A DNA stretch of 64,000 bases, taken from assembly GCF_011682045.1 (NCBI RefSeq), contig NZ_VVIW01000002.1, forward strand, positions 434,001 through 498,000, written 5' to 3'. This DNA comes from Massilia aquatica. Lineage in GTDB: Bacteria > Pseudomonadota > Gammaproteobacteria > Burkholderiales > Burkholderiaceae_D. The translations under genes were made by a program, and so were the position numbers. Of the stretch, positions 10,468 to 17,156 are shown piece after piece (the first letter of the stretch is position 1; each line of letters begins with the position of its first letter). Under the pieces are notes generated by a model. It did no database searches, was not told the origin of the DNA, and was given only the letters and a program-made list of their open reading frames with translations.

Positions 10468-11142
10468 TTATGCCATGTCCGCCGGCCCGAACGCGGCCAC
10501 GGCGCGCTGCGAGAGGGCGTCGGCGGCCTGGTTCTTGTGGCGCGGCAGCCAGCGCACGCAGGCGCCGTCGATCCGTGCCAGCAGCGCTTGCGCGCGCGTG
10601 CGGTACGCGCGCAGCGATGGCGCGCCGGCCGCGTCAAGGCCGTTCACATCGTCGATGACGACGCGGCTGTCGCCATGCACGCTCACGCCGCGCGCACCGA
10701 TGGCGACGGCCGCTTCGAGCACCGCGATCAGCGCCAGGTACTCCGCTTCGCTGCTGTTGCCGTAACCGGCCGGCCGCGAGATTTCGATCTTTTGCGCGTC
10801 CGGGCCGGTGAGCAGGGCGCCGATGCCGCAGCGGCCCGGATTGGGATGGGCCGAGCCGTCGAACCAGGCGCGCCAGGCGGACGGCGGGCCATCGTGCCTG
10901 ACCGTGCTGGCGCTGCGCGCCAGTGCGCGTTTGGCGTCGCGCGCGGCCAGGCGCGCCGCCTCCAGGGCCGCCAGCGCGGCGCGTTGGTCGAGCAGGTGCG
11001 CCAGGCCGTGCGCGCCGGCCCGCTGTTCGAGCGTGGCGCGCAAGGCCTGTTCTTCGCTGATGCCGCTGCGCGCGGCGAGTTTGCGGCTGGCGCTGCGTTC
11101 GGACTTGAAGGCGGCGGCCAGCAAAAGATGGTGTTCGGTCAT
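10468..11142 (-). CDS. RNase HI family (reverse-transcriptase-like) protein
   Basis: A 224-residue protein. Residues 1-80 are an Ala/Arg-rich helical extension. Residues 90-215 are an RNase H fold with the four acidic catalytic positions Asp-95 (WFDGSAHPNPG), Glu-134 (SEAEYLAL), Asp-158 (HGDSR) and Asp-208 (NQAADALS). RNases H cut RNA in RNA-DNA hybrids. This subgroup, annotated as ribonuclease HI family or reverse-transcriptase-like, is distinct from the main RnhA. It probably shares a transcript with the HD gene downstream. Confidence 0.87.
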   Translation of the reverse strand: MTEHHLLLAAAFKSERSASRKLAARSGISEEQALRATLEQRAGAHGLAHLLDQRAALAALEAARLAARDAKRALARSASTVRHDGPPSAWRAWFDGSAHPNPGRCGIGALLTGPDAQKIEISRPAGYGNSSEAEYLALIAVLEAAVAIGARGVSVHGDSRVVIDDVNGLDAAGAPSLRAYRTRAQALLARIDGACVRWLPRHKNQAADALSQRAVAAFGPADMA

Positions 11143-11332
11143 GGCGACAGCATAACCCTAACGGCAATTTGTTGCTAAAAGGATGCGCCGACGATGGTTG
11201 GAACGTCTCATTCGCACGATTGTGGTGCGTCAAACTGCCGAGCTCGTCAATGCCTAGTATGGCCCTTAGCGGTCCGCACGAGGCGAGTGGGAATTTCCCC
11301 TCGACCAGTTTCAATTATTCAAGGAGAACATC
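11143..11332. other. Intergenic region before the peptide-export locus
   Basis: A 190-base divergent region between the RNase H-like gene and the small-peptide gene. It should hold the promoter of the peptide locus, but I find no convincing -35/-10 pair; TAGTAT at 11255-11260 is the best -10-like hexamer and has no good -35. A dyad at 11284-11303 is the only clear structure. Confidence 0.5.
11284..11303. promoter_or_regulatory. Dyad symmetry upstream of the peptide precursor
   Basis: The core GGGAATTTCCC (11289-11299) is a perfect palindrome around one T. Outer arms CGAG and CTCG extend it with one bulged base. It sits 30 bases before the precursor start codon, so it could be an operator or a hairpin in the 5' untranslated RNA. 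No factor can be assigned from sequence. Confidence 0.35.
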
Positions 11333-11524
11333 ATGCGTAACCTGACCAGCACTGAACTGCAACACGTGTACGGCGGCGGCAAGTCCGATTGCCACACCAA
11401 ATGCCACAGCAAGAGCAAGAGCAAGAGCCGTTGCAAGAGCAAGAGCAAAAGCAAGGACAAGTGCAAAACCCGCGGCTGCGACAGCAAGTCGCGCGGCGGC
11501 GGCCTGCTCGGATGGCTGCTGTAA
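11333..11524 (+). CDS. Double-glycine leader peptide precursor with Cys/Lys/Ser-rich core (candidate RiPP or bacteriocin)
   Basis: A 63-residue peptide. Residues 1-15 (MRNLTSTELQHVYGG) match the double-glycine leader consensus LSxxELxxVxGG, with Leu-4, Glu-8, Leu-9, Val-12 and Gly-14/15 in place. Cleavage after Gly-15 by the C39 peptidase encoded at 13871 would free a 48-residue core. The core is strongly basic, with five cysteines at 20, 24, 34, 44 and 49, two near-identical ten-residue Lys-Ser blocks (25-34 and 35-44), and a hydrophobic Gly-Gly-Gly-Leu-Leu-Gly-Trp-Leu-Leu tail. A strong ribosome site (AAGGAGA) lies seven bases before ATG. It heads a likely operon with a putative modification gene, an HlyD adaptor and the exporter. 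I know no named family with this core. Confidence 0.8.
   Translation: MRNLTSTELQHVYGGGKSDCHTKCHSKSKSKSRCKSKSKSKDKCKTRGCDSKSRGGGLLGWLL
11411..11452 (+). repeat. In-frame AAGAGC hexanucleotide repeat inside the peptide core
   Basis: Three AAGAGC units (11411-11428), a CGTTGC interruption encoding Arg-Cys, then two AAGAGC units and one variant AAAAGC (11435-11452). Each unit encodes Lys-Ser. Slippage would change the core by dipeptides without breaking the frame. Confidence 0.8.
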
Positions 11525-11586
11525 AGCGTTTCCTGCTTGAGCGTCTTTCCCGGCACCTGTTCCGTTAATTGCCGGAACTGCTTCTT

Positions 11587-11622
11587 CAGTCCGCCGCCGG
11601 ACGCGGCGGTGGACTGGATTTT
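11587..11622 (+). terminator. Strong hairpin between precursor and downstream genes (attenuator-like)
   Basis: A 12-base-pair stem (11587-11598 with 11605-11616, one G-U pair) closes a six-base loop GGACGC and is followed by GATTTT. The T-tract is short, so it reads as a leaky terminator or an RNA-stabilising hairpin. Such an element after a RiPP precursor would give more precursor mRNA than exporter mRNA. Confidence 0.65.
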
Positions 11623-11638
11623 CAAGTGAGGTTGCAAA

Positions 11639-12592
11639 ATGCACCATCCCGACATCGCGCTAGCCAGCGCCGCGCCCGCGCGGCCGACGCACGAAGAACT
11701 ATGGCTGCTCGGCCAGGCGCCGCTGCAGAAGTATCTCGATTTCGCCGACGACCTGTGCGCCGAATCGCCCGAGGCCATCCGCCCCGCGCTGATCCGCGAA
11801 TGGAGCGCGGCCAGCCTGTATTACGAAGAACTGGCCAAAACCGAAGCCGGCGTGGCCGACCACCTGGACTGCGCCGCGCTGCCCGCCGCAATGGCGCCGC
11901 TGGCCGCCCGGGTATGCGCCAGCTCGCAGTACACGCGCACCTTCAACAGCCTGCCGACCCATATCGCCATGGTCGAACTGGGGCGCCTGGTGGTGTGCCA
12001 GAACCACGTCACGCGCACTTTCGTGGACCAGCTCAAGGCGCAGCTGGGACCCAACCCCGATGCGGCTGCGCTGTTTAACTTCTGCTTTCCGCCCGACGAA
12101 GTGCGCGCGCCGGTGCAGATCCGCGAGGCCGGTTCCAAGCGCTATGTGTTCCGCTCCGACTCCACCGATTTCCGCTTTCACGAACCGGTGCTGCTGCGAG
12201 CCGACCAGTTGCACGACTATCGCGCATCCGGCATGGTGGCCGGCGTGCTTGGCCTGGTGGTCGGCTACAGCGCCAACATCCTCAACGCCGTGTGCGACGA
12301 CGACAGCGGCCGGCTGGTCCTCAACAACGGCTACCACCGCACCTGCGCCTTGCTCGAACTGGGCATTCGCCACGCGCCGTGCGTGATCCAGACCGTCAGT
12401 TCGCGCGACGAACTCGATCTGGTGGCCAAGTCGATCGTGGCCCAGGATCCCGGCTACTTCTTCAATGCGCCGCGCCCGCCGCTGATGCGCGACTTTGCCG
12501 ATCCGCGCATCCGCAAGGTGCTGCGCATCAAAAAGATCGCCCGCATGATCGAGGTCAGTTACGATGTCAGAGACTACTTCATCGAAGAGTGA
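11639..12592 (+). CDS. Uncharacterised protein with ParB/sulfiredoxin-like motif in peptide-export operon
   Basis: A 317-residue cytoplasmic protein. The first 215 residues are helical and unfamiliar. Around residues 227-252 is LNNGYHRTCALLELGIRHAPCVI, the pattern Gly-x-His-Arg...Ala...Gly...Pro seen in ParB box II, sulfiredoxin and free-serine kinases (GxHRxxA then IP). This suggests a ParB/Srx-type nucleotide-binding site. It lies between the precursor and the transporter, and its last 29 bases overlap the HlyD gene, so translational coupling is likely. By position it is the best candidate for a maturation, immunity or chaperone protein. Any chemistry, for example acting on the many core serines, is inference. 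The start has a GTGAGG ribosome site. Confidence 0.6.
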   Translation: MHHPDIALASAAPARPTHEELWLLGQAPLQKYLDFADDLCAESPEAIRPALIREWSAASLYYEELAKTEAGVADHLDCAALPAAMAPLAARVCASSQYTRTFNSLPTHIAMVELGRLVVCQNHVTRTFVDQLKAQLGPNPDAAALFNFCFPPDEVRAPVQIREAGSKRYVFRSDSTDFRFHEPVLLRADQLHDYRASGMVAGVLGLVVGYSANILNAVCDDDSGRLVLNNGYHRTCALLELGIRHAPCVIQTVSSRDELDLVAKSIVAQDPGYFFNAPRPPLMRDFADPRIRKVLRIKKIARMIEVSYDVRDYFIEE

Positions 12593-13874
12593 GGACGGGC
12601 AGCCGTTGTTCCGGCCGCAGGTGCTCGATGAACAGCAAACGCGCTGGCTCGGCACGGTCGCCATTCGTCCGCGCCTGTCGCACCGCTGGTACGCCGGTTT
12701 TTCGATGCTGATCGTGGCCGTCATCACCGCCACGCTGTGCATGGCCAGCTACACCCGCAAGGCGCGCGTGGCCGGCTGGCTGGTGCCGGAGCAGGGCATG
12801 ATCCGCGTGTTTTCGCCGCGCGTGGGCGTGGCCACCAGGATGATGGTGCGCGAAGGCGACGTGGTCGCCGCCGGCCAGGCGCTCGTTGCGCTGTCGGGCG
12901 AGGAACGCAGCGTGGCCGTGGGCGACACCAACGCCCAGGCGGCGCTGGAATTGCAGGCGCAGCGCGCCAGCCTGGGCGCCGAACAGCAACGCGCGGCCCA
13001 GTCGTTCGGGCAGCAGCGCGCCATGCTGGCCGAGCGCATCGCCGCCGCGCGCGCCGAGCAAGAGAACATGGTGCAGGAAATCGTGCTGCAAAAACGCCGC
13101 GTGGCGCTGGCCCGCACCTCCGAAAAACGGCTCGACGAACTCAAGGCGCGCGGTTTCATCTCGGCGCAGCAGGTGCAGATCACGGCCGAAGCGACGCTCG
13201 ACCAGGCCGGCAAACTGCGCTCGCTCGAACGCGCCTTGTCGTCGCTCGGGCGCGAACGCCTGGCGCTGGAAGCGGAATTGAACGACATGCCGCTCAAGCT
13301 GGCCACGCAAAACGCGCTGGTGGCGCGCAGCACCAGCGCCATCGACCGCGAACTGGCCGAGGTGGCGGCCAGGCGCGAACTGCTCATCACCGCTCCGCAG
13401 GCCGGCACCGTGACCGCGATCCATACCGCGCGCGGGGCGGCGGTGGGTACCGGCGCGCCGCTGCTGAGCATCGTGCCGCGCGGCGCCACGCTCGAAGCCC
13501 ACCTGTACGCGTCGAGCCGCGCCATCGGTTTTTTGCGCCCGCAGCAGCAGGTGCACCTGCGCTACCTGGCCTACCCGTATCAGAAGTTCGGGCACTACAC
13601 CGGCACCATCAAGAGCATTTCGCGCACCGGCATCGAGCCGGCCGAGCTGCCGGCCCAGTTCGGGGCGGCGGCCGGCAATGGCAATGGCAAGGGCGGCGAA
13701 GCGCTGTACCGCATCACCGTCACGCTGGCGCGCCAGGACGTGACGGCCTACGGCGCGCGCGTGCCGCTCGCCCCCGGCATGCAGCTCGACGCCGACGTCT
13801 TGCTGGAGCGGCGCCGTTTGATTGAATGGGTGCTCGATCCGGTCTACACCATCACCGGGAGGCTGGGACGATGA
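12564..13874 (+). CDS. HlyD family periplasmic adaptor of the peptide exporter (CvaA-like)
   Basis: A 436-residue membrane fusion protein. A cytoplasmic tail is followed by one transmembrane helix (about 43-63), a split lipoyl/barrel-sandwich domain (about 66-110 and 270-300) and a long Ala/Glu/Arg-rich coiled-coil hairpin (about 110-260). A C-terminal beta-barrel segment contains the LRYLAYPYQKFGHYTG block typical of bacteriocin-export adaptors. It would bridge the C39 ABC exporter to an outer-membrane TolC-type channel encoded elsewhere. Its start overlaps the upstream gene by 29 bases, and its stop overlaps the exporter start as ATGA. Confidence 0.92.
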   Translation: MSETTSSKSEDGQPLFRPQVLDEQQTRWLGTVAIRPRLSHRWYAGFSMLIVAVITATLCMASYTRKARVAGWLVPEQGMIRVFSPRVGVATRMMVREGDVVAAGQALVALSGEERSVAVGDTNAQAALELQAQRASLGAEQQRAAQSFGQQRAMLAERIAAARAEQENMVQEIVLQKRRVALARTSEKRLDELKARGFISAQQVQITAEATLDQAGKLRSLERALSSLGRERLALEAELNDMPLKLATQNALVARSTSAIDRELAEVAARRELLITAPQAGTVTAIHTARGAAVGTGAPLLSIVPRGATLEAHLYASSRAIGFLRPQQQVHLRYLAYPYQKFGHYTGTIKSISRTGIEPAELPAQFGAAAGNGNGKGGEALYRITVTLARQDVTAYGARVPLAPGMQLDADVLLERRRLIEWVLDPVYTITGRLGR

Positions 13875-16033
13875 GCAAACCATTCGACGCCGCCGCCGGC
13901 CTGGGCATGCGCCTGCCGTCGATCCTGCAAACCGAGGCGGCCGAATGCGGGCTTGCCTGCCTGGCCATGATCGCGGCCTACCATGGCAACGGCAGCGACC
14001 TGGCGCAACTGCGGCGCCGCTTCGGCATGTCGCTGCGCGGCGCCACCCTCAAGGACCTGGTCGGCATCGGCGCGCACCTGGGTCTGGCCTCGCGGCCGCT
14101 GCGGCTCGAACCCGACGAACTGGAGATGCTGGCCACACCCTGTATTTTGCACTGGGACCTGAACCACTTCGTGGTTCTCAAGCAGGTCACCGCCAAGGGT
14201 GTCGTGATCCACGATCCGGCGGTCGGCGTGCGCCGCCTGCCGCGCGCCACCGTGCTGAAACACTTTACCGGGGTCGCGCTGGAACTGAGTCCCACCGCCG
14301 CTTTCGAATCGGGGCAGGCGCGCCCGCGCGTGCGCTTTACCGCGCTGCTCGGGCGCATGACGGGCATCAGGCAGTCGCTGTTCGCACTGGCCGCCATGGC
14401 GCTGGCGATCGAGGTGCTGGCCGTGGTCAGCCCGTTCTTCATGCAGTGGGTGGTCGACGAAGCGCTGGTCAGCGCCGACCGCGACCTGCTGCTCACGCTC
14501 GCGCTGGGATTTGCCTTTTTGCTGATCATCCGGGTGGCGGTGACGGCGGCGCGCGGCGCCACATTGATCGCCATTTCCAGCACCATCAAGGTGGCCGGGC
14601 GCGCCAGCCTGTTCGGCCACCTGGTCAGCCTGCCGGCGGTGTATTTCGAAAGCCGCCACCTGGGCGACATCATGTCGCGCTTCGGCTCCCAGGAAGTGAT
14701 CCTGCAAGCCATCACCACCGACATGGTCGAAATCCTGCTCGACGGGCTGATGGCGGCCATCACCCTGTGCGTGATGCTGTTCTACGCGCCCGAACTGGCG
14801 ATGCTGGTGGTCGGTGGCAGCGTGCTGTATGCGCTGGTGCGCGCCGCCTCCTACACGGCGCTGCGCAATGCTTCGGTGGAGGCGATCGTGTGGGGCGCCA
14901 AGCGTGACAGCCACTTTCTGGAAACCCTGCGCGGCATGCGCACCATCAAACTGTTCAACGCCCAGGCTTCGCGCCAGGCCCACTGGCTCAACCTGCTGGT
15001 GGAAGCCGTGAACCGCCAGGTGACCACGCAAAAACTCGGGCTCATGTTCCGCACCGTGAACGCGCTCCTGATCGGCATCATCGCCATCCTGGTGGTGTGG
15101 CTGGGGGCCGAGCGCGTGTTGAACAATACGTTTTCGGTCGGGATGCTGCTCGCTTTTATCAGCTACAAGGACCAGTTCATGGGGCGCGTGAGCGCCTTGA
15201 TCAACAAGACGCTCGACCTGTTCATGCTGCGCCTGCACGCCGAACGGCTGGCCGACATTGCGCTCACGCCGCCGGAAGTGTGCCATTTGCCACTGCCGTC
15301 CACACAGGAGAGCAAACCGATGGCGATTCGCCTGCGCGGGCTGCGCTTTCGCTACGGCGCCGGCGACCCGTGGGTGTTGGATGGGATCGACCTGGACATT
15401 GCGGCCGGCGAATCGGTGGCCATTGTCGGCCCGTCCGGCTGCGGCAAGACGACCTTGCTGCGCCTGCTGGCCAGTTTGCTCGAACCGGTAGCGGGCGAGA
15501 TCGAGATCGATGGCCGCGCCCTGAACCGGGCCGGCCTGGGCGAATACCGTTCGCAGATCGGGGTGGTGATGCAGGACGACCAGCTGTTCGCCGGCTCGAT
15601 CGCCGACAATATCAGCTTCTTTGCCGACGCGCCTTCGATGGAGCGCATCCGCGCCTGCGCGCGCCTTGCGGCGGTGGAGGACGACGTGAACGCGATGCCG
15701 ATGGGTTTTCATACGCTGATCGGCGACATGGGCACGGTGCTGTCGGGCGGGCAGAAACAGCGCATCCTGATTGCGCGCGCGCTGTACCGCGAGCCGGTCC
15801 TGCTGCTGCTCGATGAAGCGACCAGCCATCTGGATGTGACGCGCGAACAGGCGGTCAACGCCGCCATCCACGCCTTGCCGATGACCCGCATCATCGTCGC
15901 GCACCGGCGCGAAACGATCCTGTCGGCGGAGCGCATCATCGTGCTGGAAGAGGGCAAGGTCGCCTGCGACCTGCGCGGCGAAGAGGGCCGGGCGGCTTAC
16001 CTCGCGCGCATGGAAAAAGCGCCAGCCGGGTAG
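13871..16033 (+). CDS. C39 peptidase-containing bacteriocin/peptide ABC exporter (CvaB/RaxB-like)
   Basis: A 720-residue transporter of normal length. The N-terminal C39 peptidase keeps Gln-20, catalytic Cys-26 (TEAAECGLACLAM), His-99 (LNHFVVL) and Asp-115 (HDPAVG), so it should cut after the double glycine of the 63-residue precursor. A six-helix ABC domain spans about 160-440. The nucleotide-binding domain has Walker A GPSGCGKTT at 520-528, signature LSGGQ at 624-628 and Walker B LLLLDE at 644-649. The start ATG overlaps the HlyD stop. A longer in-frame start at 13826 lies within the HlyD gene and adds no family residues. Confidence 0.95.
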   Translation: MSKPFDAAAGLGMRLPSILQTEAAECGLACLAMIAAYHGNGSDLAQLRRRFGMSLRGATLKDLVGIGAHLGLASRPLRLEPDELEMLATPCILHWDLNHFVVLKQVTAKGVVIHDPAVGVRRLPRATVLKHFTGVALELSPTAAFESGQARPRVRFTALLGRMTGIRQSLFALAAMALAIEVLAVVSPFFMQWVVDEALVSADRDLLLTLALGFAFLLIIRVAVTAARGATLIAISSTIKVAGRASLFGHLVSLPAVYFESRHLGDIMSRFGSQEVILQAITTDMVEILLDGLMAAITLCVMLFYAPELAMLVVGGSVLYALVRAASYTALRNASVEAIVWGAKRDSHFLETLRGMRTIKLFNAQASRQAHWLNLLVEAVNRQVTTQKLGLMFRTVNALLIGIIAILVVWLGAERVLNNTFSVGMLLAFISYKDQFMGRVSALINKTLDLFMLRLHAERLADIALTPPEVCHLPLPSTQESKPMAIRLRGLRFRYGAGDPWVLDGIDLDIAAGESVAIVGPSGCGKTTLLRLLASLLEPVAGEIEIDGRALNRAGLGEYRSQIGVVMQDDQLFAGSIADNISFFADAPSMERIRACARLAAVEDDVNAMPMGFHTLIGDMGTVLSGGQKQRILIARALYREPVLLLLDEATSHLDVTREQAVNAAIHALPMTRIIVAHRRETILSAERIIVLEEGKVACDLRGEEGRAAYLARMEKAPAG

Positions 16034-16047
16034 CCGGGCTGGCGCTT
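16017..16047 (+). terminator. Hairpin at the end of the peptide-export operon
   Basis: An 11-base-pair perfect stem (AAGCGCCAGCC with GGCTGGCGCTT) overlaps the last codons and stop of the exporter gene. No T-tract follows, so factor-independent termination is uncertain; it may also act on the convergent gene ending at 16068. Confidence 0.5.
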
Positions 16048-16067
16048 CGTTACAACCTCAAGCCGGA

Positions 16068-16886
16068 TCAGTCGCGGCGTGGATTGTCGGGACGGCTGTC
16101 GCGGCGGTTCGGGACGCCGTCGCCATCGCGGTCACGGTCGGCGCGGTTCGGCACACCATCGTTGTCGCGATCGCGGTCGTAGGCATCGGGCACGCCGTCA
16201 CGGTCGCGGTCACGGTGTTCGAGGCGGTCTGGCACTCCGTCACGGTTGCGGTCACGGCCTTCCAGGCGGTCCGGAACGCCATCGCGGTCACGGTCGCGGC
16301 CTTCGAGGCGGTCGGGGATGCCGTCACGGTCGCGGTCATGACGGTTCCAGCGGGCCGGTTCCATGTACCAGTTGCCGTCGCGCTGGACCCAGGCCGGCTG
16401 CGAGTACACATAGCCCACGCGTTCGCGCACCCACTGGCCGCCGATCCAGGCGTGGCGGTTGCCGCGCCATTCCCAGTGACCGGGAACCCACACATGGCCG
16501 GCGCGTGGACGTGGCATGCGTTCGTAGCGTGGCGGCGGCGGGGCGACCCGCACGACGGTGAAGTCGCGCTGCCCAACCTGCTGCCAGCCGCCCTGGTTGA
16601 GGCGATAGCTGTTGTTATCGCGGATCCATTCGGTGCGGCGGTATTCGTAGCCGCTGCGCGCGCTTTCCCAGTGGCCGGCGGTCCAGACGTGGCGGTTGTT
16701 TTCCCAGTTCCAGAATCCCGGCGCCCACACATAGCCGCGGCGTGGCGCCGGCACGCTCTCGAAGCGCGGTTCCGGTGGGGCGGTGTTGATGATCACGCGG
16801 AAGTCAGTTTGAGCGACCGACGGCAGCGGCATGAAACCGGCGGCGCCAAGGGTGATCAGTGCTGCAAAGGTCAGGGTACGCTTCAT
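16068..16886 (-). CDS. Exported YXWGXW-repeat protein with Asp/Arg-rich calcium-binding-type repeats
   Basis: A 272-residue protein starting at ATG 16886 with a signal peptide (cleavage near SVAQ-TDF). Residues 40-170 hold two copies of the YXWGXW type: GYVWAPGFWNW...WTAGHWES and GHVWVPGHWEW...WIGGQWV. The C-terminal third is a run of Asp-Arg-Asp-Gly-Val-Pro-Asp repeats like thrombospondin type 3 repeats, which bind calcium in other proteins; here Arg replaces many usual Asp/Asn positions. A ribosome site (AAGGAGAAG) precedes the start. It is likely periplasmic or surface located with an unknown role. It is convergent with the exporter gene. Confidence 0.85.
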   Translation of the reverse strand: MKRTLTFAALITLGAAGFMPLPSVAQTDFRVIINTAPPEPRFESVPAPRRGYVWAPGFWNWENNRHVWTAGHWESARSGYEYRRTEWIRDNNSYRLNQGGWQQVGQRDFTVVRVAPPPPRYERMPRPRAGHVWVPGHWEWRGNRHAWIGGQWVRERVGYVYSQPAWVQRDGNWYMEPARWNRHDRDRDGIPDRLEGRDRDRDGVPDRLEGRDRNRDGVPDRLEHRDRDRDGVPDAYDRDRDNDGVPNRADRDRDGDGVPNRRDSRPDNPRRD

Positions 16887-17156
16887 TTTTACTTCTCCTT
16901 GTGAATTCCTATGAATCCAATATAGCAAGGCGTCCGGCGCTTCCCGGCTATTGATTCACCTGCTTACAATTGAAACAGAATCCGGGGCAAACGTAAATTC
17001 CGTTACGTACCGAGGCAAGCTTGTTTTATTGGTAATTCCTGTTGACCCACCCCGTCCTTCCCGCCTCTCGCGGGAACGGCGGGGCATGGGTTTCGCTTTC
17101 CCCCCGCTAGTGCCAGTCAGGCCGCGCGCGAGGCGTGGGACGGAATTTGCGGAGAG
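16887..17156. other. Intergenic region before the penicillin-binding protein
   Basis: About 270 bases between divergent genes. It should carry promoters for the YXWGXW protein and for the PBP gene, but no clear sigma-70 hexamers stand out. The only structure seen is the imperfect hairpin at 17052-17082. Confidence 0.5.
17052..17082. repeat. REP-like imperfect hairpin
   Basis: Arms 17052-17064 and 17070-17082 pair at 11 of 13 positions around the loop CTCTC. The GC-rich CCCGC...GCGGG form is like dispersed intergenic hairpins of betaproteobacteria. Only one copy is obvious here, so its repeat nature is inferred. Confidence 0.35.

Follow-up and report, generated by a model that had tools for sequence, protein, structure and literature searches.

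A conserved peptide-export cassette with a probable ParB/Srx-fold partner protein in Massilia aquatica and its relatives

Introduction

Export units of class II bacteriocins and microcins combine a precursor with a double-glycine leader, an ATP-binding cassette (ABC) exporter carrying a C39 peptidase domain, and an HlyD-type adaptor. Here we describe a locus of Massilia aquatica, found in a stretch of 64,000 nt of contig NZ_VVIW01000002.1 (the window; coordinates are positions in it), in which a precursor peptide, a 317-residue protein, an HlyD adaptor and a C39-ABC exporter are encoded in this order on the forward strand. With the class II bacteriocin and microcin units it shares the leader type, the C39 peptidase exporter, the adaptor and the one-direction operon, and its export half is ordinary. 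It is unlike them in that most members have a hydrophilic core in which serine recurs periodically, that there is no separate immunity gene, and that the 317-residue protein, further called the partner, most likely has the ParB/Srx fold. The serine-periodic core and the partner are what is new.

Known representatives of the ParB/Srx fold are CTP switches, sulfiredoxin and free-serine kinases. The HprK-like kinases, which belong to an unrelated fold, provide a comparison of another type. They phosphorylate serine in paeninodin-type lasso peptides (PMC9266682) and in LPPs (PMC13381572), and the cassette resembles these systems in that an extra nucleoside triphosphate (NTP)-using protein stands beside a ribosomal peptide, with serine as the modification site, as is proposed here for the partner. 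In contrast to the cassette, LPPs are described as using a discrete RRE (recognition element of ribosomally synthesized and post-translationally modified peptides, RiPPs) and a signal-peptidase-like protease instead of a C39 domain (PMC13381572). EdeB offers a precedent for a ParB-family protein encoded in the cluster of a peptide antibiotic, but it is described as a helix-turn-helix (HTH)-bearing activator of the non-ribosomal edeine cluster (PMC9641203). A survey devoted to the ParB-CTPase fold (PMC12704722) does not use the words RiPP, bacteriocin, lasso or peptide in its main text.

Conservation and limits of the cassette

All four genes, in unchanged order, are present in 15 genomes with a close form of the partner (13 from the family sample plus loci L009 and L011, overlapping records being counted once), and in every one of these a precursor is encoded upstream with the same orientation. 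A first-pass annotation, made from the letters of the window, had proposed a complete make-and-export unit whose core family would recur beside C39 exporters, and both expectations are borne out. In 13 of these genomes, that of the window included, neither the adaptor frame nor the exporter frame is interrupted. Loss of the precursor with retention of the exporter, which had been raised as a possible objection, was not seen in the 15 genomes; since all of them were found through the 317-residue protein, a genome with the exporter only would have escaped notice. Three relatives without the partner gene also lack the exporter at that site.

Within the genus, five of 17 genomes carry the partner gene; among genomes drawn from the family it was found in 14 of 392, one of which (G097) has a remote homologue. 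Named carriers include Massilia mucilaginosa, M. rubra, M. niastensis, M. rhizosphaerae, Duganella sp. 1411, Pseudoduganella buxea and P. flava; the three named relatives that were looked up are Oxalobacteraceae. With a profile of the partner family (A2), matches were obtained in one of 399 genomes of the order (the window's own), three of 369 of the class and five of 398 of the phylum; two of these five span about 44 positions with E near 3e-4, and one is locus L050. A profile of 15 precursors was run over a set of 15 genomes, G097 and G581 among them. It hit 14 places, each at the cassette locus, in 13 of the genomes, and did not recover the diverged precursors of these two.

Three of the 12 genus genomes without the locus (G015, G004 and G013) share the flanking genes of the window, with 28-75 bp between the homologous ends where the window has about 4.85 kb, and these empty sites point to a self-contained cassette. 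Among 558 translations of flanking frames (at least 90 residues) from 14 loci, none was common to three or more loci; sharing was limited to the pairs L035/L037 (30 matches) and L030/L031 (three matches, 28-40% identity). The empty sites and the absence of a flank common to three loci thus delimit the cassette to precursor, partner, adaptor and exporter, without a separate immunity gene. At the level of sequence, it is a self-contained gene set with an intact exporter.

The features of the window locus are collected in Table 1. As annotated at first, the partner, adaptor and exporter genes follow the precursor, and the C39 domain retains its catalytic residues Cys26, His99 and Asp115; the ATPase motifs (Walker A, LSGGQ, Walker B) are in place too. 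A precursor with a double-glycine leader beside an exporter with C39 and ATPase motifs is what characterizes the C39/double-glycine class, and the cassette has both. Against NCBIfam TIGR01843 the adaptor gave E 4.3e-34 and 118 bits, under the cut-off of 209. The best NCBIfam model for the exporter is TIGR03796, which it has in common with NHLP/NHLM export, but an NHLP bacteriocin system is ruled out by score (475.3 against a curated cut-off of 853.3 bits), and the cassette leader is short and unlike the nitrile-hydratase-like leader that marks NHLP systems.

The proposal that all genes run in one direction with overlaps holds for the direction and for two overlaps, partner/HlyD and HlyD/ABC, whereas the precursor is separated from the partner gene by 114 nt. 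A ribosome-site-like stretch, AAGGAG, accompanies the precursor frame, and a search for a sigma-70 consensus in 11100-16150 found none. The hairpin in the gap is common but not universal in the family: among ten further post-precursor segments (some cut at 150 nt), folding z-scores of -2 or lower were found for five (L028, L010, L011, L013, L037) and not for the others (L009, L012, L014, L038, L030).

Table 1 Features of the cassette in the window (aa, amino acids; ORF, open reading frame)
Feature	Position	Strand	Evidence or remarks
Precursor peptide, 63 aa	11333-11524	+	ORF; homologues next to partner, adaptor and exporter genes in 15 genomes; pattern of purifying selection
Parts of the precursor			Leader, residues 1-15, MRNLTSTELQHVYGG; core, residues 16-63, Ser/Lys alternation and GGLLGWLL tail
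Intergenic segment with 13-bp hairpin, attenuator- or processing-like	11525-11638	+	RNA fold z -4.77
Partner protein, 317 aa, probably ParB/Srx fold	11639-12592	+	No Pfam family
HlyD-type periplasmic adaptor, 436 aa	12564-13874	+	Pfam PF13437 (HlyD_3), 2.9e-15
C39-peptidase ABC exporter, 720 aa	13871-16033	+	Pfam Peptidase_C39 7e-36, ABC_membrane, ABC_tran
Inverted repeat at the cassette end	16017-16047		Similar repeat at the empty site of G015

Some neighbouring arrangements are worth recording. Next to the cassette, the window encodes on the reverse strand (16068-16928) a protein with WXXGXW repeats and C-terminal DRDRDGVPD-type, thrombospondin-3-like repeats. In G010 a tandem second unit lies upstream (L028:9457-11101), with an intact precursor of different core, a reduced partner gene and a truncated HlyD gene, and an RNase H-like neighbour fragment between the units. 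A metagenome contig labelled Bacteroidetes (L015:1-5853) encodes HlyD and a C39-type ABC protein with 47% identity, together with a partner-family fragment in opposite orientation.

Taken as a whole, the cassette is a real and conserved peptide-export unit that is apparently undescribed. The first annotation had known of no described family of this kind, and no earlier report of the cassette was found among the matches listed in open-licence literature searches.

Precursor peptides

The reading of the first gene as a 63-residue precursor with a double-glycine leader (Gly14-Gly15) and a 48-residue core stands. Over 15 aligned precursors the leader consensus is about MRNLxSxELQHVYGG, with M1, R2, L4, E8, L9, V12, Y13, G14 and G15 invariant. 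Synonymous and nonsynonymous substitutions number 2 and 0 between the window and G002; over the first 41 codons they are 6 and 0 against G008, and 8 and 2 against G010. This is the pattern of a gene under purifying selection, to judge from these comparisons, and conservation together with the substitution pattern rules out a chance frame.

The cores change rapidly in length and composition but keep one rule, namely serine at every second place over long stretches. For a set of 13 cores, one per lineage with three near-identical genus copies omitted, the pattern SxS was observed 94 times, as compared to a mean of 37.2 and a maximum of 52 in 5000 shuffles, and SS once where 37.9 were expected. 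The residue between the serines is Lys, His or Arg in 96 of 115 cases over 16 cores; tested singly, three of the 16 (L011, L013 and G404) miss p 0.05. The cysteine spacing of the window core is indeed CX3C-X9-C-X9-C-X4-C, as first annotated, but its use as a class signature had to be abandoned, as the number of cysteines ranges from 0 to 7 over the 13 cores and three of them have none. It is the leader and the alternation of serine with basic residues, not the cysteine spacing, that persist. Leu, Ile, Val, Phe, Trp and Ala together make up only 11 of 570 residues in the 13 cores, and the GGLLGWLL tail of the window core accounts for five of the 11, so that outside this lineage cores are nearly without hydrophobic residues. 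Histidine varies from 2 to 15 per core, L013 and L037 having HSHSHN repeats with 14 and 15.

The partner protein

A Pfam search with the 317-residue protein, up to E 10, gave no match, and in NCBIfam it matched SerK only (E 0.071; 12.2 against a cut-off of 380 bits); three distant homologues gave similarly weak SerK or SbnI matches (E 0.0084-0.091). No known RiPP enzyme family was matched in Pfam or NCBIfam, and the partner is a candidate modifier only. More informative was a profile of eight homologues, covering the C-terminal half, against the PDB: up to E 10, all ten matches (best E 0.02) were of the ParB/Srx fold, and with a wider profile nine of 12. Five kinds of protein are represented among the ten: SerK and SbnI with three sequences each, Noc with two, and Spo0J and 1vk1 with one each; 1vk1, Noc and Spo0J are presumably ParB-fold members. 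For SerK and SbnI the fold has been described (PMC12704722).

Foldseek searches with an AlphaFold2 (AF2) model agree with this assignment: nearly all of the best 50 of 82 matches have the ParB/Srx fold, 7aic being an exception, and none of those listed has E below 0.05. The top match is 2hwj, which we take to have this fold. The modelled core elements, E216-220, E225-230, H232-240 and E245-253, form a beta-beta-GxxR-helix-beta arrangement, and the extra N-terminal part of about 100 residues is modelled as helical with low confidence. Within the core, NGYHR (230-234) aligns with DGHHR of SerK, and over the same GxHR region weak PHROGs matches were obtained to a DNA-binding protein for the window partner (E 0.17) and to ParB-like proteins for that of L044 (E 0.21-0.51). 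As all ten matches represent one fold, which weighs more than any single E-value, the fold is strongly indicated. While the partner is thus like SerK and SbnI in the GxHR core of its C-terminal half, it is unlike them in having the N-terminal extension, an operon shared with a peptide, and two acidic residues that look replaced, as discussed below.

Related loci

In another family, homologues of the partner were matched in ten of 178 genomes, five of them near full length (G681, G1487, G1649, G1631 and G1626); the other five matches, of 34-38 residues only, were set aside. At all five loci examined (tblastn from L049) the homologue has lasso genes as neighbours, which encode a precursor, a B-type protein and a diverged cyclase. 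These lasso-type clusters are located at L049:5189-9111 and at L045, L061, L062 and L063. The B protein of L049 passes NF033537, and its cyclase is asparagine-synthetase-like and under its NCBIfam cut-offs. The lasso-side cores end in TTSP, and we infer a core of AHNHGTLWDGVFPTTSP from the rule that threonine occupies position -2 of the leader.

Further precursors with double-glycine leaders occur beside partner homologues. The L044 locus of G581 has a partner, HlyD (52% identical to that of the window) and a C39-type ABC exporter (68%); its core consists mainly of Gly and Lys with few Ser. The precursor of this locus (L044:5664-13652) has GKGG repeats, and a FemAB-like protein, encoded there in addition, could act on lysines of the core. 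In G097 (L029:5830-10746) a remote partner that keeps the Asp of DGYHR is accompanied by C39-ABC, HlyD and a 168-residue precursor with a double-glycine leader and SPQPRN repeats. The repeated location of the partner family beside ribosomal peptides of different types favours an action on peptides.

Discussion

We consider it rather probable that the cassette produces a C39-exported ribosomal peptide with a ParB/Srx-fold partner for its maturation or escort. The C39 domain of the exporter would recognize the conserved leader and cut after Gly-Gly, and the Ser/basic core would leave through the ABC-HlyD pair in a type-I-like manner, with a housekeeping outer-membrane channel completing export. 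Before export, the 317-residue protein would act on the precursor: binding nucleotide through its GxHR core, it may modify the core peptide, with the periodic serines as natural target, or keep it soluble. Since the cassette holds no other gene for it, any dedicated maturation step would fall to the partner. RiPP status is plausible, though the partner matches no known RiPP enzyme family. The exported peptide is probably strongly charged and without fixed structure, and it would act outside the cell and not as a bacteriocin that forms pores.

Several observations weigh against this reading. The PDB matches are individually weak and come from few proteins, and with a narrow profile of eight close sequences (A1) none of 17 matches was of the ParB fold (best E 0.75); as the signal is absent there and present with wider profiles, it needs diverse sequences. 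The AF2 models are poor, with a predicted local distance difference test (pLDDT) score of 51 for the full-length model used in Foldseek and a worse 41 with a trimmed alignment. Two acidic residues appear replaced: the Asp before GxHR is Asn in ten of 11 homologues (Asn230 in the window), L029 keeping Asp, and the position of SerK Glu30 and SbnI Glu20 is Gln121, in all 11, in a manual register that matches the strand VELxRLVVxQ to IELDKMKPHE and agrees with the modelled strand 107-113. The HMMER register places SerK Glu30, a residue named in PDB titles, near residues 189-190, where no conserved Glu is found. SbnI requires Glu20 and Asp58, as quoted second-hand in PMC9641203. With the kinase Glu missing in either register and the Asp mostly Asn, a plain serine kinase is not claimed, and a canonical SerK/SbnI-type enzyme was not accepted. 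The serine codons are AGC in 160 of 185 cases, so that hexanucleotide slippage or repeat expansion, which the shuffles do not model, has probably shaped the cores. Frames are interrupted in the assemblies of G002 (adaptor and exporter) and G008 (adaptor), possibly by sequencing error since coverage is near 6 in both. Finally, at all five lasso loci the homologue is transcribed divergently from its lasso neighbours, an orientation that might suit a regulator.

That last arrangement leaves room for a regulatory role, in which the partner would be a ligand-responsive regulator of its operon, comparable to EdeB for edeine, and the peptide would be exported unmodified. EdeB, a ParB-family protein, binds the promoter of its cluster, and both transcriptional regulation and enzymatic activity are ascribed to SbnI (PMC9641203); the weak PHROGs matches point the same way. 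The partner, however, is the second gene of the operon that it would control, overlapping HlyD, and Pfam, NCBIfam and PHROGs gave no DNA-binding domain outside the ParB-like core, whereas EdeB is described with an HTH domain (PMC9641203), which makes this option quite unlikely. Phosphotransfer is attractive because HprK-like kinases already phosphorylate serine in paeninodin-type lasso peptides and LPPs (PMC9266682, PMC13381572): an NTP-dependent transferase would phosphorylate, or nucleotidylate, the periodic serines to give a polyphosphorylated cationic peptide, an HprK-like role on an unrelated fold. The best-scoring PDB sequences, SerK and SbnI, are free-serine kinases, serine is the commonest as well as the periodic residue of the cores, and the TTSP ends on the lasso side would fit. 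The Gly/Lys-dominated core of L044 does not, and because of the replaced catalytic acids we regard this possibility as unlikely.

The remaining two alternatives concern the peptide more than the partner. A class II-type bacteriocin or microcin, with the 317-residue protein providing immunity, would explain the leader, exporter and adaptor held in common with microcins, the hydrophobic end of the window core, the sporadic presence of the cassette in the genus, and the leader matches to lactococcin G-beta (E 0.014) and bacteriocin_sig (E 0.12) in NCBIfam, both weak and below cut-off. Yet the scarcity of hydrophobic residues, almost half of which belong to the window core, the lack of a separate immunity gene and the location of partner relatives beside lasso peptides all speak against it, and immunity proteins are usually small or membrane-bound; it is the least probable of the explanations considered. 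A secreted metal-binding or matrix peptide is also unlikely. Its His/Cys/Lys-rich core would bind metal ions, phosphate polymers or surface polysaccharide, with the partner only as an escort, and the histidine-rich cores of L013 and L037, the Cys and Lys of others and the low hydrophobicity are in its favour; the cores without Cys and the wide range of His content are not, and as no flanking frame is common to three of the 14 loci, there is no conserved metal-handling neighbour.

Within the reading of a maturation or escort partner, a more specific version is offered tentatively, and we think it more doubtful than not: the partner could represent a new family, distinct in its fold, of proteins that use a nucleotide in the maturation of peptides, serving linear Ser-alternating as well as lasso peptides and modifying Ser (or Lys/His) repeatedly, to give a polyampholyte like phosphorylated RS domains or silaffins.

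If the partner does modify its peptide, the ParB/Srx fold would gain a role in the maturation of ribosomal peptides, and two peptide contexts, linear with a double-glycine leader and lasso, would be at hand for testing it. Co-expression lends itself to this question, as the cassette is self-contained with only four genes and nature provides a series of cores that diverge from one another. The cassette may represent a new route by which secreted peptides mature.

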